NCBI GenBank assembly: GCA_017542125.1 | Contig: JAFXXU010000019.1 | Location: forward strand, 1 to 48,515 | DNA from: Ruminococcus sp. | Lineage (GTDB): Bacteria > Bacillota > Clostridia > Oscillospirales > Ruminococcaceae | DNA length: 48,515 nucleotides | Reading direction: 5' to 3' | Shown here: piece after piece, positions 13,652 through 19,375 of the stretch | How positions within the stretch are numbered: the stretch's first letter is position 1 | Layout: every line of letters starts with the position of its first letter | Position numbers and translations under genes: made by a program | The notes under the pieces: generated by a model | Told to the model about the DNA's origin: nothing | Seen by the model: only the letters and a program-made list of their open reading frames with translations | Databases searched by the model: none

Positions 13652-14008
13652 ATGCTTGAACTGTTATTTACTCTGCTGTGCGATCATTTTCTGTTTTTTG
13701 CGCTGCATTTCGACAACAAGACCGTGTTTCCAAAGCCCCTCTCGGCTAAGGAGGAGAGAGCCTGCTTTGAACGACTGGCGGAGGGCGACCGCTCTGCCCG
13801 GGACGAACTGATCGAGCACAATCTCCGGCTCGTGGCCCACATCATCAAGAAATACTACGCCCAGGCTCAGGATCAGGACGATCTGATCTCAATAGGCACC
13901 GTGGGGCTGATAAAGGCGGTGAACACCTTCCAGAGCGCCAAGGGCAGCCGCTTCGCCACCTATGCCTCCCGGTGCATAGAAAAAGCTATGCTGCCGCAGG
14001 GCACATAA
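13652..14008 (+). CDS. sigK: Sporulation sigma factor SigK, 5' part
   Basis: This frame encodes pro-SigK up to its interruption. Residues 1-20 (MLELLFTLLCDHFLFFALHF) form a hydrophobic pro-sequence like that of Bacillus SigK, so proteolytic activation is expected. Then come FPKPLS and region 2: LIEHNLRLVAHIIKKYY, DLISIGTVGLIKAV, FATYASRCIE. After Glu110 homology stops and only nine unrelated residues (KAMLPQGT plus stop) follow, because 13984 begins the inserted element. The rest of the gene is at 19018-19375 on the same strand. Joining at the A-tract gives a 229-residue protein reading CIE-NEILMHFRSL, as in Bacillus (CIENEILMHLRAL). AGGAGG precedes the ATG. Vegetative cells would make only the fragment. 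Confidence 0.95.
   Translation: MLELLFTLLCDHFLFFALHFDNKTVFPKPLSAKEERACFERLAEGDRSARDELIEHNLRLVAHIIKKYYAQAQDQDDLISIGTVGLIKAVNTFQSAKGSRFATYASRCIEKAMLPQGT
13980..13998 (+). repeat. Left recombination site (attL) of the sigK element
   Basis: Five A residues (13980-13984) are followed by GCTATGCTGCCGCA (13985-13998), the exact reverse complement of 19001-19014 at the other end. The A-tract is shared with the right junction, and the reading frame of sigK fixes the exchange within it. Confidence 0.8.
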
Positions 14009-14012
14009 CAGC

Positions 14013-14045
14013 AAAACGGAAGCAGCGCGATACTGCTTCCGTTTT
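14013..14045. terminator. Terminator after the EAL gene
   Basis: AAAACGGAAGCAG (14013-14025) pairs with CTGCTTCCGTTTT (14033-14045), with T-rich flanks on both strands. It ends the cyclase-phosphodiesterase operon only 15 bp from the left att repeat, and would also stop sigK fragment transcripts entering from the left. Confidence 0.85.
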
Positions 14046-14049
14046 TGTT

Positions 14050-15660
14050 TTACTTATCCTCCCCGTCGACCACAAGGGTGGCGGAGCCGAAGGCTTTAAG
14101 GGGCTTGCCGTTCTCGTCCCGCTCAAGAGTATAGCGGACGTGGAAAGGTATCCTGCCCACGGTCAGGGGAATGATGCCTTCGATCTGATCCACCTCGCCG
14201 TGCTCGATCTTTCTCATCCACTCCCGGTACATATCCGCATAATCGGGCGGGAAAACGCCGCTCTCGATAAGGGGCTCCGGGTAATTATGCACAATCGGCG
14301 GGACATTCAGGTCGCGCATACATCTGAAGCAGGGGCGCATATCCCGTGTGGCGATATCCACCTCCCAGGCATAGACATTGGCGTGCTCAAAGCCGTAGCG
14401 CAGACGGCGCTCGCTTTCAAAGAGCTCGTCATAGCGCTTCTTTTCGGCGGTGATATTCTGTACCATAGCATAGAACAGATACTGCTCCTCGGTTCTGCCG
14501 ATGAGCCTGATAAAGCTGCGTATGCAGATCATATCCTCGCCGCAGATCTTCGAGCAGATCGTCCGCCAGGTCTCACAGACCTCCTCATCGCCGGAGTCAA
14601 TGGCGCGGAGAAGAGTTTCTTCGTACTTCTTACGGTTCTCGTCGTCCATACCCACCCATGGGTCGGAATCAAGGATCTCCTGCTCGATCATGTTCATACC
14701 GAGCTCCTTGACATACTTCTTGTTGACCCTGAGTATCTCAGCCTTGCCGCTCTGATATGTGAAGATGACCGCGCCGCCCACGAAGTTGTTGAAGATCAGA
14801 GTCTCCATAGAGGTGGGGTCCCAGAACTTGCCTGCGTCCATCTTGCCCAAAAGATCCATGGCGGCCTTCATAGGCTCGTGCTCCAGCTGCTCCATCTTGA
14901 CCCTGAATTCATCGGCCGGTACGGGCTTGGAGTAGAGATAGCCCTGAACGTACCGGCAGCCTATGCTCTTCATATAATCTGCCTGCTCCATGGTCTCGAC
15001 GCCCTCGGCGATGACCGGGGTACCGAGCCATTTTGCCATCTGGACAATGGCGCTGATGATAGTGCCGCCTCGCCCGCCGATATTTCCGCTGAGAAAACGC
15101 ATATCCAGCTTTATGACATCGACCGCCAGATCTTTAAGAACGTTCAGCGAGGAATAACCGCTGCCGAAATCGTCCATCTCAACAACATAGCCGAACTCGT
15201 GGAGCCTTTTCAGCACGCTTGAAACCAGCTCCATACCTCCGATAGCAGAGGTCTCGGTGACCTCAACGTGAAGGTACTTGACGGGTATATCGTACTTGAT
15301 ACGGAGCTTTTCGATCTCGTCTACATAGTTCTTCCTGTAGATATCGTACCGGGACATATTTACCGAGATAGGCACGGGCTTCAGGCCCTCGTCCAGACTC
15401 TTTCTCAGGAAGCTGCAGACCGACTCGAAAACAGCCAGGTCGGCGCGGTAGATAAGGTCGTTCTTTTCCAGAACAGGGATAAAGTCTGCGGGATACTGCA
15501 TCCCGTAGACGGGGTGGGTCCATCTCATCAGAGCCTCGGCACCGATCATCCTGCCGGTAGAGTGGTTGATCTTAGGCTGATAGGTCACAAAGATATGCCC
15601 GAAAGCTATAGCATCGTCAAAGCAGGCAAGAAGCTCCTGCTCGCTCATAACCTTACCCAT
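14050..15660 (-). CDS. EAL-domain c-di-GMP phosphodiesterase with PAS-like C-terminus
   Basis: The 536-residue soluble protein begins with an EAL domain (about residues 20-260) that looks active: EALMRW (42-47), ISVNMSR, EVTETSA, MDDFGSGYSSL, VIKLDMRFL, VIAEGVET and GYLYSKP are all present. It should hydrolyse c-di-GMP to pGpG. The C-terminal half (about 290-536) looks like two PAS-like sensory domains, an order opposite to the usual sensor-first layout. A longer frame exists up to 15708, but ATG 15658-15660 has a GGGGGG site 7 nt upstream. It is 22 nt downstream of the cyclase gene, in one operon inside the sigK element. Confidence 0.93.
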   Translation of the reverse strand: MGKVMSEQELLACFDDAIAFGHIFVTYQPKINHSTGRMIGAEALMRWTHPVYGMQYPADFIPVLEKNDLIYRADLAVFESVCSFLRKSLDEGLKPVPISVNMSRYDIYRKNYVDEIEKLRIKYDIPVKYLHVEVTETSAIGGMELVSSVLKRLHEFGYVVEMDDFGSGYSSLNVLKDLAVDVIKLDMRFLSGNIGGRGGTIISAIVQMAKWLGTPVIAEGVETMEQADYMKSIGCRYVQGYLYSKPVPADEFRVKMEQLEHEPMKAAMDLLGKMDAGKFWDPTSMETLIFNNFVGGAVIFTYQSGKAEILRVNKKYVKELGMNMIEQEILDSDPWVGMDDENRKKYEETLLRAIDSGDEEVCETWRTICSKICGEDMICIRSFIRLIGRTEEQYLFYAMVQNITAEKKRYDELFESERRLRYGFEHANVYAWEVDIATRDMRPCFRCMRDLNVPPIVHNYPEPLIESGVFPPDYADMYREWMRKIEHGEVDQIEGIIPLTVGRIPFHVRYTLERDENGKPLKAFGSATLVVDGEDK

Positions 15661-15682
15661 ATTAAGCCCCCCCTTATCAGAC

Positions 15683-17797
15683 CTACTTGAAGGTCTTTTT
15701 ATTCTCATACATCAGAGCATCAGCTCTCTCAAATACGTCCTGAACTCTCATATCGTTCTCGATATTGAAATCGGAGATACCGCAGGCTACGGTCACCAGG
15801 CCGGAAGCCTTCTGCTTTTCCTGGATCGCATAGAAGCGCTCCATCAGCTTGCCGCGCTGCTCATAGTCTCTGCCCCGGACTATGACAGCGAACTCGTCGC
15901 CGCCGATACGGAAAACGGGGCTGTGGTCAAACACCTCACAGATTATGCTGCATCCGCTCTTGATATAGGCATCGCCGGCGTTGTGTCCCTGGGTATCGTT
16001 AACCTTCTTCAACCCGTTAAGATCGCAGATGACCACGGCGAACTCCTGCTGAGTGCCCTGGGAGATCTGCTCGTCTATCTCCATTTCGGTCTGAGCATAG
16101 GCTCTCTTGTTCTTGACGGAGGTGAGTGCGTCACGGTTCGCAAGATCCACGGCACTCTGATACTCCAGCTCCATACGCTTTGCTGCATCCACATTAGCCA
16201 CAGCCACGATGATATGGTCGGAATCCTCCTTTGCACGGACGGCGTAGAGGGAAACATACTGAGGCCTGCCGTCAAGGATGAGGCGGTAATTGATAAGGGT
16301 CTTTCCGTCCTCGCTGAGGCGTTTCAGCAGGTTCTCCTTCTTCATCGCCGCAAGCATCATGGGCAGATCGTCGGGATAGATATCAGTTACCATATTCCTT
16401 GCGGTATCGGCGAAGAAATCCTTGCCGACGGTGCCGATCTCCAGACGTGAATATTTTTCGCTGGCGCTGTACTCGGAATAAGCGTTGGTCTTGAGGTCAA
16501 CGTGGTATATGACCTCATACTGCAAAGCCAGAGCCATGGACATATCGGCAAAGGTGCGGTTCTCCTTTTCCATGGTCTGTTCGCGTTTCATCTGGGCATC
16601 TATGTTCTGCACGCCCATAATAATATGCTTGTTGTCGTTCTTCGGCTTGACTATGACCATATTCATATAGCAGTAGCCGGTGCCCAGCAGCTGCCTGTAT
16701 ATCAGGGAAATGGTGCCTTTATTTGCAAGCTCGGCGAGGAGGTGTTCCTTTTGCAGCTCGCCCAGCAGCTTCTCGGCATCGTGCCTGTGGATATATTTCT
16801 TTATATCCTCGGCAGAGGTCTTGAAGAAATCCGAGCCCTGCTTGGTGGTTCCCAGCTTGGCGTAATCGGCGCTGGAGCTGTACTGTGTATATTCGTTGGT
16901 CTCGGTATCTATGTAGTAGATGACCTCATACCGGCTTGAAAGGGCTGCTGCAATATGGCTGTAGGTCGCGATCTCATTTTCCTGACGTATCTGATCGTCG
17001 ATATTGCGAACACCCATAACTATCTTGTCCGAGTCGCCCTGCTTGAAGAAGGCTATGAGGTTCACATACTGGGTCCTGCCGTCGAGTATCTGGCGGTAGA
17101 CAATAGAAACGGTGCCGTTCTTGCGCAGCTCGGCAACAAGGGAATCCCTGTCGATCCTGTTAAGCAATGCTACGCGGTCATCGGGGTGGATGATCTTTTC
17201 AATATCGCGGCGGGACTTGCTGAAGAAGTCCTCACCGCCGTGGGGCAGCCCGAGCCTGTCATAGGTCTCGCTGGAGCTGTACTGGATATAATGGCCTGTC
17301 TCGATATCTATATGGTAGATGACCTCAAAAAGGCTTGCGAGAGATTCGGCGATCTCGGCGTAGATACGCCTTTCCTTTTCGTTCTCCAGCTCGCGGCGCT
17401 TCTGCTCGTCTATATTCTGCACGCCTATGATGATGCTCCTGTCACTTGCTCGGATAGTCTTTAAGAAGTGATAGCGGGGCTCGCCGCCGATATTCAGGCG
17501 GTAGGTCAGCGAGAAGGAGCTGCCGCCGTTAAGGGCGCGGGTAACCGCTTCCTTCCGGAACGCATTCAGGAAGTATTCCTGATCCTCCTCCCACACCTGC
17601 TCGCGGCAGTCACGGTGGACATCGCTGAAGAAATCCTCACCCGAAGACACCCGAACGAGCTCCTTGCTGTCCTTATCCGGGGAATACTCGGCGTAGCTGT
17701 CATCATCAGCGTTAATGACGAAAAGCCTGTTATAATCGCTGGCAAGAGCCAATGCAAAATTGACAAAGGAAACCGGGCTCCTGTTGTTTTCGGACAT
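15683..17797 (-). CDS. Diguanylate cyclase with four tandem PAS-like domains
   Basis: The 704-residue soluble protein has four successive related units of about 130 residues (about 1-130, 140-275, 280-410, 412-545). Each has a core like YHIDIETGHYIQYSSSETY, a DFF motif and an end like GVQNID, typical of PAS_3-like sensor folds. A GGDEF domain (about 555-704) follows with an intact signature RIGGDEFAVIV, so it should make c-di-GMP. No RxxD inhibitory site is seen five residues before GGDEF. No membrane segment is evident. The four units look like internal duplications. GGGAG precedes the ATG by 8 nt; a sigma-A promoter and a leader hairpin lie upstream. The ligand is unknown. Confidence 0.93.
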   Translation of the reverse strand: MSENNRSPVSFVNFALALASDYNRLFVINADDDSYAEYSPDKDSKELVRVSSGEDFFSDVHRDCREQVWEEDQEYFLNAFRKEAVTRALNGGSSFSLTYRLNIGGEPRYHFLKTIRASDRSIIIGVQNIDEQKRRELENEKERRIYAEIAESLASLFEVIYHIDIETGHYIQYSSSETYDRLGLPHGGEDFFSKSRRDIEKIIHPDDRVALLNRIDRDSLVAELRKNGTVSIVYRQILDGRTQYVNLIAFFKQGDSDKIVMGVRNIDDQIRQENEIATYSHIAAALSSRYEVIYYIDTETNEYTQYSSSADYAKLGTTKQGSDFFKTSAEDIKKYIHRHDAEKLLGELQKEHLLAELANKGTISLIYRQLLGTGYCYMNMVIVKPKNDNKHIIMGVQNIDAQMKREQTMEKENRTFADMSMALALQYEVIYHVDLKTNAYSEYSASEKYSRLEIGTVGKDFFADTARNMVTDIYPDDLPMMLAAMKKENLLKRLSEDGKTLINYRLILDGRPQYVSLYAVRAKEDSDHIIVAVANVDAAKRMELEYQSAVDLANRDALTSVKNKRAYAQTEMEIDEQISQGTQQEFAVVICDLNGLKKVNDTQGHNAGDAYIKSGCSIICEVFDHSPVFRIGGDEFAVIVRGRDYEQRGKLMERFYAIQEKQKASGLVTVACGISDFNIENDMRVQDVFERADALMYENKKTFK

Positions 17798-17815
17798 TTT
17801 ATCAACTCCCGACTG

Positions 17816-17836
17816 TCGGTCTTAAATAAAGACCGA
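17816..17836 (-). promoter_or_regulatory. Leader hairpin of the cyclase operon
   Basis: TCGGTCTT (17816-17823) and AAGACCGA (17829-17836) form an 8-bp stem with a 5-nt loop in the 5' leader. It ends about 8 nt before the ribosome site, so it could affect mRNA stability or translation. It does not resemble a c-di-GMP riboswitch. Confidence 0.4.
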
Positions 17837-17865
17837 TACATTTAGGCATAATAATACTTATATCA

Positions 17866-17894
17866 ATTATAACACATACAATACAACTATTCAA
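17866..17894 (-). promoter_or_regulatory. Sigma-A promoter of the c-di-GMP operon
   Basis: On the minus strand TTGAAT (17889-17894), 17 bp, TATAAT (17866-17871). This vegetative-type promoter predicts that the cyclase and phosphodiesterase are made in growing cells, before excision. Confidence 0.7.
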
Positions 17895-17975
17895 TGAAAT
17901 ATTGTAAGTTTTTATATAATTTTATAAAAAATATAACATATACCAACATATTTCTCTCGGCACTTCCCTTCCTCT

Positions 17976-18004
17976 GTCTATACTATGCCTTGCCCGCATA
18001 AAAT
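17976..18004 (+). promoter_or_regulatory. Candidate sigma-E promoter of the recombinase
   Basis: GTCTATA (17976-17982) and CATAAAAT (17997-18004) are 14 bp apart, resembling a sigma-E promoter. The skin recombinase gene spoIVCA of Bacillus is sigma-E dependent. The match is partial and remains a suggestion. Confidence 0.35.
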
Positions 18005-18033
18005 ATAGCAACACATCCGAAAGGGGCAGGAGT

Positions 18034-19020
18034 ATGCCAAACAGAAGGATAGCCATATACTCTCGAAAGTCAAAGTTCACCGGCAAGGGGGAGAGCATCG
18101 GCAACCAGGTAGAGATATGCCGCCGGGCAGCGGTCTCGCAGTACGGCGGCAGAGATGAGGATATAGTCGTCTTTGAGGACGAGGGCTTCTCCGGAGGCAG
18201 CACCAACCGCCCCCGCTTCCGGGAGATGCTGGAACGGTGCAGGGAGGGTGAATTCCGGCTGGTAATCTGCTACCGTCTCGACCGCATAAGCCGCAACACC
18301 GCCGACTTTGTCAGGACCTATGAGAGCCTGCGGGAGTGCGGGGTCTGCTTCCGCTCCGTGAGCGACAACATCGACGACACCACCCCTATGGGCAAGGCTA
18401 TGATGATGATATCCTCGGTGTTCGCACAGCTGGAGCGGGATATAATCGCTGAGCGGATAACAGATAATATGCTTGAGCTGGCCAAGCTGGGCCGCTGGCT
18501 GGGAGGACGCACTCCCGCCGGATACCGCAGCATTGCCACAGTGGGCAGCATAGCCTCCGACGGCAGAGAGCGCAAAGCCGTCAAGCTGGAGCTCATCGAA
18601 AGCGAGGCTGAGGATATCCGGCTGATATTCCGCAAATACATAGAGCTCCGCTCTCTGACGGCGCTCGCAGATCATCTTAAAGGCATGGGCATCAAAAGCA
18701 GGCTCGGGCGGGAGCACACCCGCGCCTCCCTCCGAGGTATACTTTCAAACCCGGTATATGTGATAAATGACATCCAAGCCTATGAGTGGTTCTCCCGGAG
18801 CGGGATGCAGCTCTACGCCGATGAGAGTGAGTTTGACGGTGAAAAGGGTATGCTCGCCTACAACAAGACCCGCCAGACCTCCGGTAAGGCGGTTAAGCAC
18901 AAGGCGCTCTCGGAATGGGTGGTAGCCGTGGGCAGGCACAGGGGGATAATCCCCGGAAACGAGTGGGCAGAGGTGCAGGAGCTGCTGGAACAGAACCGTT
19001 TGCGGCAGCATAGCAAATGA
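18034..19020 (+). CDS. Serine site-specific recombinase of the sigK element
   Basis: The 328-residue protein has a resolvase catalytic domain: IAIYSRKS with the nucleophilic Ser10, CYRLDRISRN, and FAQLERDIIAERITDNM. A recombinase domain follows (about residues 165-310; GGRTPAGYRS, RGILSNPVY). This is the SpoIVCA/XisF class that excises sporulation intervening elements. It is unusually short: large serine recombinases usually reach about 500 residues with a zinc ribbon and coiled coil, whereas this one ends after HRGIIPGNEW where the zinc ribbon would begin. The last codons lie in the right att repeat and the TGA (19018-19020) belongs to the sigK side, so excision would remove the stop. It is adjacent to sigK-3', the usual position for spoIVCA. 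Confidence 0.93.
   Translation: MPNRRIAIYSRKSKFTGKGESIGNQVEICRRAAVSQYGGRDEDIVVFEDEGFSGGSTNRPRFREMLERCREGEFRLVICYRLDRISRNTADFVRTYESLRECGVCFRSVSDNIDDTTPMGKAMMMISSVFAQLERDIIAERITDNMLELAKLGRWLGGRTPAGYRSIATVGSIASDGRERKAVKLELIESEAEDIRLIFRKYIELRSLTALADHLKGMGIKSRLGREHTRASLRGILSNPVYVINDIQAYEWFSRSGMQLYADESEFDGEKGMLAYNKTRQTSGKAVKHKALSEWVVAVGRHRGIIPGNEWAEVQELLEQNRLRQHSK
19001..19017 (+). repeat. Right recombination site (attR) of the sigK element
   Basis: TGCGGCAGCATAGC (19001-19014) is the exact reverse complement of the left inner repeat, followed by AAA (19015-19017), the tract shared with the left junction. It overlaps the final codons of the recombinase gene. Confidence 0.8.
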
Positions 19021-19375
19021 GATACTGATGCACTTCCGCTCCCTGCGGAAGACACAGAACGACGTCCACTTCGATGAGCCGATAGATACCGACAAGAACG
19101 GCAACAAGCTGACCCTCATCGACCTTATCGCAGACGATTGCTGCATAGACGATGAGGTAGAGCTGAGCGTATCCTCAAAGAAGCTCTATGAGCTTATAGA
19201 GACCCGCCTTCCGGATAGGGAGCGTGAGGTGATGATCCTGCGCTTCGGGCTCTACGGGCGCAGACCCTTGACACAAAGAGAGACCGCCCAGAAGCTGGGC
19301 ATCTCCCGCTCCTATGTTTCAAGAATAGAAAAAACCGCACTGGAAACGCTCAGGGAGCATTTCCGGTGCGGGTAG
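19018..19375 (+). CDS. sigK: Sporulation sigma factor SigK, 3' part
   Basis: The frame continues SigK from the codon completed at the junction: NEILMHFRSLRKTQNDVHF, then PIDTDKNGNKLTLIDLI, and region 4 with LPDREREVMILRFGLYG and the recognition helix QKLGISRSYVSRIEK. It lacks its own start signal; an internal ATG at 19028 has no ribosome site. With 13652-13983 it forms an intact 229-residue gene, near the 241 of Bacillus SigK. After excision in the mother cell it would direct late sporulation genes such as spoVFAB in this window. Its stop is one base from the convergent DUF1653 gene. Confidence 0.94.

Follow-up and report, generated by a model that had tools for sequence, protein, structure and literature searches.

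The window analysed in this work is the whole contig JAFXXU010000019.1 of NCBI GenBank assembly GCA_017542125.1 (Ruminococcus sp., 48,515 nucleotides), in which an insert of 5034 bp separates codon 110 of the sporulation gene sigK from codon 111. Both parts of sigK lie on the forward strand of this one contig (C14) of a draft genome (G000; 2.9 Mb, 91 contigs, 90.5% complete), and the N-terminal stretch of the 5′ part is typical of pro-SigK. The intervening DNA holds genes for an EAL-domain protein, a GGDEF protein and a serine recombinase, and is bounded by two att-like sites (Table 1).

Table 1. Features of the interrupted sigK locus (positions in the window)
Feature	Position	Strand	Evidence and remarks
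5′ part of sigK	13652..13984	+	TIGR02846 positions 1-114, E 6e-43; last base of codon 110 at 13981, A-run continuing to 13984
Putative attL	13980..13998	+	A-run with presumed AA core, then left element arm GCTATGCTGCCGCA
Cargo: EAL-domain protein, c-di-GMP phosphodiesterase type, 552 aa	14050..15708	-	PF00563, E 9.4e-60
Cargo: GGDEF protein, diguanylate cyclase type, 704 aa	15683..17797	-	PF00990, E 2.3e-22
Shortened large-serine-recombinase gene, 328 aa	18034..19020	+	PF00239 and PF07508; stop codon inside attR
Putative attR	19001..19017	+	right element arm TGCGGCAGCATAGC, then AAA
3′ part of sigK	19016..19375	+	TIGR02846 positions 112-226, E 1.4e-34; NEILMHF to stop codon

The interrupted gene and its junctions

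Joining the two halves yields a frame of 690 nt and 229 amino acids with zero internal stops, which bears out an earlier reading of the sequence alone (the sequence-only reading) that had placed them on the same strand, 5034 bp apart, with a restored frame on joining. In profile searches the joined product scores 289.5 bits against NF004471, above the cut-off of 252, and 283.6 bits against TIGR02846, slightly below the cut-off of 298.65. Removal of the insert thus restores the frame of a single sporulation gene, as in elements of the skin and gin kind. The junctions overlap in a run of A, five at 13980-13984 and three at 19015-19017, and CIE-NEIL is obtained only from joints that leave four A, that is, with 5034 bp removed; a joint at a shared AAA giving CIE-NEILMHFRSL, as first proposed, is right in its coordinates to within the A-run, for these four-A joints. 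The sequence places the crossover no more exactly than within the A-runs.

Immediately inside both A-runs lies a perfect 14-bp inverted repeat (13985-13998 and 19001-19014). Set in the register arm-A-AA-A-arm, the window's two arms are symmetric at 14 of 18 positions, as good a value being reached by 0 of 20,000 shuffles that preserve composition only. Related elements are not independent of one another; the attP arms reach p < 0.05 in 11 of the 12 loci with both ends and p < 0.01 in 8 of the 12, against p < 0.05 in 2 of the 12 for the attB arms. These 12 were scored out of 17 loci, L066 and L071 having one end unmatched by the pattern, and G004, L055 and L056 providing the right end only. A short shared core with inverted arms that give a symmetric attP is what skin- and gin-kind elements have, and the symmetry of the ends is as expected of the attP of a serine recombinase. 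The arm consensus was derived from the loci other than G000, L060 and L071 on the left, and other than G000 and L060 on the right. Many relatives carry a CGGCTC-like motif farther out on their arms, which was not seen in the window; our guess is that the zinc ribbon of the recombinase contacts it.

Within the draft genome, a SigK query matched the two parts of sigK and one full-length gene (48%) on contig C67, presumably sigE; no further sigK was found, and with a draft 90.5% complete a second copy could be missing from the assembly. One extra full-length match of this type is found in most genomes of the genus, and the C67 gene was rejected as a second sigK; the check for an intact second copy suggested by the sequence-only reading accordingly returned only the two parts and the 48% gene. 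The same genome yielded 29 matches to sigma region 2. The joined form of sigK is absent from the draft genome, and the joint of an excised circle was found in 0 viral contigs.

Distribution in the genus and the family

The proposed check of related genomes for an intact sigK came out positive: the gene is uninterrupted in 13 of the 16 genomes of the genus, comprising 12 with a single uninterrupted match (that of G015 spanning residues 1-213) and G013, whose halves lie at overlapping contig ends and which was rejected as split and counted as intact. In G003 the order degV, SpoU, PdxK, sigK, YbaK and the next gene is that of the window minus the element. Relatives have an uninterrupted ENEIL at this position, and where sigK is split elsewhere in the family the break falls at the window's codon, with a similar arm layout. 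The interruption is thus more than a place where SigK homology stops. The uninterrupted relatives and the shared break codon led us to reject chance or artefact as the origin of the split.

Besides G000, sigK is split in G004, in which only the C-half lies on the contig, and in G005, with the halves on two contigs. On the number of insertions the trees differ: the sigK tree pairs G000 with the intact G006, and G004 with G005; the recombinase tree pairs G000 with G004. The G005 element is spread over two contigs (L072, L073) and measures at least some 17 kb, with an AAA-domain protein inside and transposase-like genes, named by eye, at its contig end. In G004 the gene directly downstream of the C-half, and so not within the element, encodes a 711-aa protein with an EAL-like stretch (L041, G004:C116, 246-2381).

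Across the family, both sigK halves are present in 36 of 53 selected genomes, a lower bound since the 53 re-searched were those with a weak best match among 396 family genomes and the other 343 were searched once. The halves stand on one contig in normal order in 20 genomes, across a contig end in one (G066), in reversed order in two (G108 and G380) and on different contigs in 13; seven further genomes have the N-half only and ten are without a clear half. Between match ends, the gaps in the 20 normal-order loci range from 3.4 to 59 kb, and those of G114, G082 and G070 are smaller than the window's. The element had been described as unusually small next to known, much larger prophage-like elements; its size is not unique, given these three loci. 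Small, phage-free sigK inserts recur, and that of the window is small without being the smallest.

Of the 20 same-contig loci 12 were read, and in 10 of these a recombinase gene on the strand of the C-half directly adjoins it; one is also found next to the C-half in L054, L055 and L056, all from Ruminococcus. In L071 a more distant recombinase lies beside the N-half on the other strand, and in L060 none was found. The L060 halves (G070:C114, 1978-6434) enclose 3.7 kb, in which Pfam identifies a pyruvate formate-lyase-like enzyme and a radical-SAM protein. In the two reversed loci (G108:C2, L082 and L083; G380:C1, L084 and L085) both halves are on one strand with the C-half first and the N-half about 47.5 and 58 kb later; a full recombinase follows the N-half, and the loci also hold genes of BioB-, BioY- and BirA-like proteins. 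Recombination at these two loci would put the joined sigK on a circle of 47-58 kb and split the chromosome, or else the order reflects a later rearrangement. Among the titles and abstract beginnings listed by searches of the open PMC library, in which subscription papers are mostly absent, none dealt with split sigK in Ruminococcus or Oscillospirales.

Gene content of the element

The two cargo translations contain the EAL and GGDEF motifs that are the signatures of these domains, and the GGDEF protein has in addition a weak PAS_3 match below the cut-off. The GC content of the element (53.1%) compares with 53.9% for the window. Against PHROGs, the recombinase matches integrase/integration, invertase and transposase families, and the cargo domains match families of unknown function; Pfam and PHROGs revealed no phage structural or lysis genes in the element, only EAL, GGDEF and recombinase. 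The description of an insert free of phage genes and reduced to a recombinase and a two-gene cargo therefore stands, with the cargo now named, and we do not file the element as a prophage-like skin.

G005 has an EAL-GGDEF pair in the same order outside sigK, between ABC transporter genes (named by eye), with 77% and 71% identity to the window's pair, and its EAL protein is the only relative spanning nearly the whole EAL protein among the matches listed for the 16 genomes. To judge by these matches, the pair was likely captured from host DNA, and it is probably not part of the sigK switch.

The shortened recombinase

The recombinase gene adjoins the right junction, within which its stop codon sits, so that this part of the sequence-only reading holds; what it missed is the truncation of the protein, of which the catalytic and recombinase domains remain. 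These two are well matched (PF00239, E 2.1e-35; PF07508, E 4.1e-18, positions 2-102 of 102), and the zinc ribbon (PF13408) and coiled coil of large serine recombinases are lacking. Judging from domains and alignment, the protein is a truncated derivative of this class. It is 236 residues shorter in alignment than the recombinase of G004, whose zinc ribbon lies at 336-399, and the missing stretch is internal, with both of its ends matching relatives; the C-terminus reads LRQHSK, where endings such as PQREDSK are seen in many relatives. In a survey of 396 family genomes (E up to 1e-75, at most five candidates scored per genome; 57 matches in 55 genomes), the window's open frame has 366 codons between stops and the open frames of the other 56 of the 57 matches have at least 494. 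The second shortest recombinase, that of L061 (G082:C69, 4228-5688; 486 aa), has lost most of its coiled-coil stretch and kept its zinc ribbon.

In the predicted structure (mean pLDDT 79, pTM 0.53) the recombinase domain is modelled with confidence and the chain closes with a helix at 308-327, which puts the truncation at a domain edge. The best Foldseek matches are serine integrases, at low whole-chain TM-scores (0.3-0.44).

We regard it as improbable that the truncation reflects misassembly or a minority variant, with a full-length enzyme in what would then be an ordinary small skin element. In favour of this are the draft state of the genome (91 contigs), the greater length of all 56 other matches and a missing stretch that is internal with matching ends; against it, the joint is in frame and at a domain edge, and no sign of an assembly break was seen at the spot. 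It is more improbable still that another serine recombinase of G000 excises the element in trans and that the 328-aa protein is inert. The genome does contain a second relative (G000:C67:121662-122249, open frame of 599 aa, 41% identity over part, E 8.8e-38), but this is distant, falls short of the 1e-75 survey limit and lies on a contig other than that of sigK.

No small upstream or overlapping open reading frame with a ribosome site, as a directionality factor (RDF) might have, was found near the G000 recombinase, and since RDFs share no sequence pattern one could be missed. The sigma-E-like sequences CATACAAT and CATAAAAT were noted as promoter candidates, yet 22 of 100 shuffles scored as high as the best sigma-E site in the window and 42 of 100 as high as the best sigma-A site, so that neither kind of promoter is claimed there. 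Sigma-A-like sites before the recombinases of L055, L056 and L068 were reached by 0 of 100 shuffles.

Selection and the state of the locus

Codon models were fitted to sigK in 15 of the 16 genus genomes (G015 left out; 226 codons), testing 10 of the 15 tips and one pair. On the G000 branch, which may include time before the insertion, omega is 0.029 against 0.060 overall and omega = 1 is rejected (2dlnL 88), a result that argues against long decay. The split gene of G005 (0.087) does not differ from the rest, and the one raised value, 0.25, belongs to the intact gene of G012. For the recombinase (317 codons, 15 sequences, with branch estimates for L061, L063, L062 and L068 very long or diverging), omega on the G000 branch is 0.18 against 0.066 (2dlnL 7.85) and still below 1 (2dlnL 19.5); it is also raised in L055 (0.12) and L056 (0.33). 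SpoIVA and SpoIIID are each present in 15 of the 16 genus genomes, and G000 has both.

These results bear on whether the element is frozen, the in-frame deletion of zinc ribbon and coiled coil having ended excision and left sigK permanently broken, with late sporulation arrest, or with a loss too recent for decay. Such a short recombinase is unique (1 of 57), its gene shows relaxed omega, the window shows no sign of the distal arm motif of many relatives, and phiC31 integrase loses its activity when the coiled coil is removed (PMC10754689). Set against this are two sigK parts that are in frame and constrained, perfect 14-bp symmetric arms, an open recombinase frame and the retention of SpoIVA and SpoIIID; we judge a frozen element unlikely, while taking it seriously. 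In the same published account, a Listeria LI integrase without coiled coil carries out attL x attR recombination at 2.2% without a factor (PMC10754689). Both cases concern loss of the coiled coil with the zinc ribbon retained, whereas the window's recombinase is without both.

The short recombinase may work as a minimal enzyme with no need of a factor, or it may be broken. It is conceivable, if somewhat doubtful, that losing zinc ribbon and coiled coil in frame was adaptive and no sign of decay: freed of the coiled-coil lock, the catalytic and recombinase domains would act on fully symmetric short arms with no directionality factor and with timing set by transcription of the recombinase alone. 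The truncation makes present-day excision uncertain. The apparent preservation of SigK and of the symmetric arms inclines us towards a locus that still works; against this stand the recombinase's outlier length and its relaxed omega.

Discussion

The skin element is about 48 kb in size, and the codon at which it breaks sigK in Bacillus subtilis is probably the same as or nearly the same as the one broken here. The insert of the window differs from skin in its 5 kb, in having no phage structural family, in that no Skr-like open reading frame was seen and in a recombinase without zinc ribbon and coiled coil. The likeness between the two lies in a split sigK, a serine recombinase gene of the element's own beside a junction and inverted-repeat att sites; in skin (with SpoIVCA and Skr) excision rebuilds sigK (PMC6957869, PMC5025042), as it would here. 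Skin is described as a defective prophage, and its RDF gene skr overlaps spoIVCA (PMC6957869).

The skinCd element of Clostridioides difficile likewise intervenes in sigK, is excised by a large serine recombinase and has attL and attR inverted-repeat half-sites; that recombinase, CD1231, requires the RDF CD1234, and the insertion site is unlike that of B. subtilis (PMC5025042). CD1231 differs from the window's protein in having catalytic, recombinase, zinc-ribbon and coiled-coil parts. The gin element in gerE of Bacillus cereus ATCC10987 is alike in being phage-free, in splitting a sporulation gene and in an attP symmetric about a predicted AA cut; it is excised during sporulation, as proposed for the window's element, and differs in its 28.6 kb, three recombinase genes, RDF GirX and target gene (PMC5595907). 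Similar in layout are small family loci such as G082/L061 and G114/L062, with the same break codon, similar att arms and a related recombinase reading into attR; they differ in recombinases of 486 and 543 aa and in a cargo of an ABC ATPase and an SNF-type symporter.

Taken together, we consider it reasonably probable that the window contains a compact, phage-free, skin-type sigK-intervening element whose excision restores the gene. If it behaves as skin and gin do, recombination of attL with attR at the AA core would release a 5034-bp circle and leave sigK uninterrupted, during sporulation and most likely in no cell but the terminal mother cell. We infer that excision occurs, that this is its timing and that the shortened recombinase is its agent.

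Beyond the sequence-only reading, the comparison establishes that split sigK recurs in the family and that the window's recombinase is an outlier. Among clostridia, a skin element was described in 2016 as exceptional (PMC5025042); the present survey counts at least 36 genomes with a split sigK in a single anaerobe family, some of them from rumen Ruminococcus. Several of these elements are small and carry ordinary metabolic or signalling genes, so that the question of why sigK is split becomes testable in very small elements. The element of the window is a natural test of the minimal large-serine-recombinase content needed for excision and, if the loss of zinc ribbon and coiled coil were indeed an adaptation, it would be a near-minimal sigK DNA switch.
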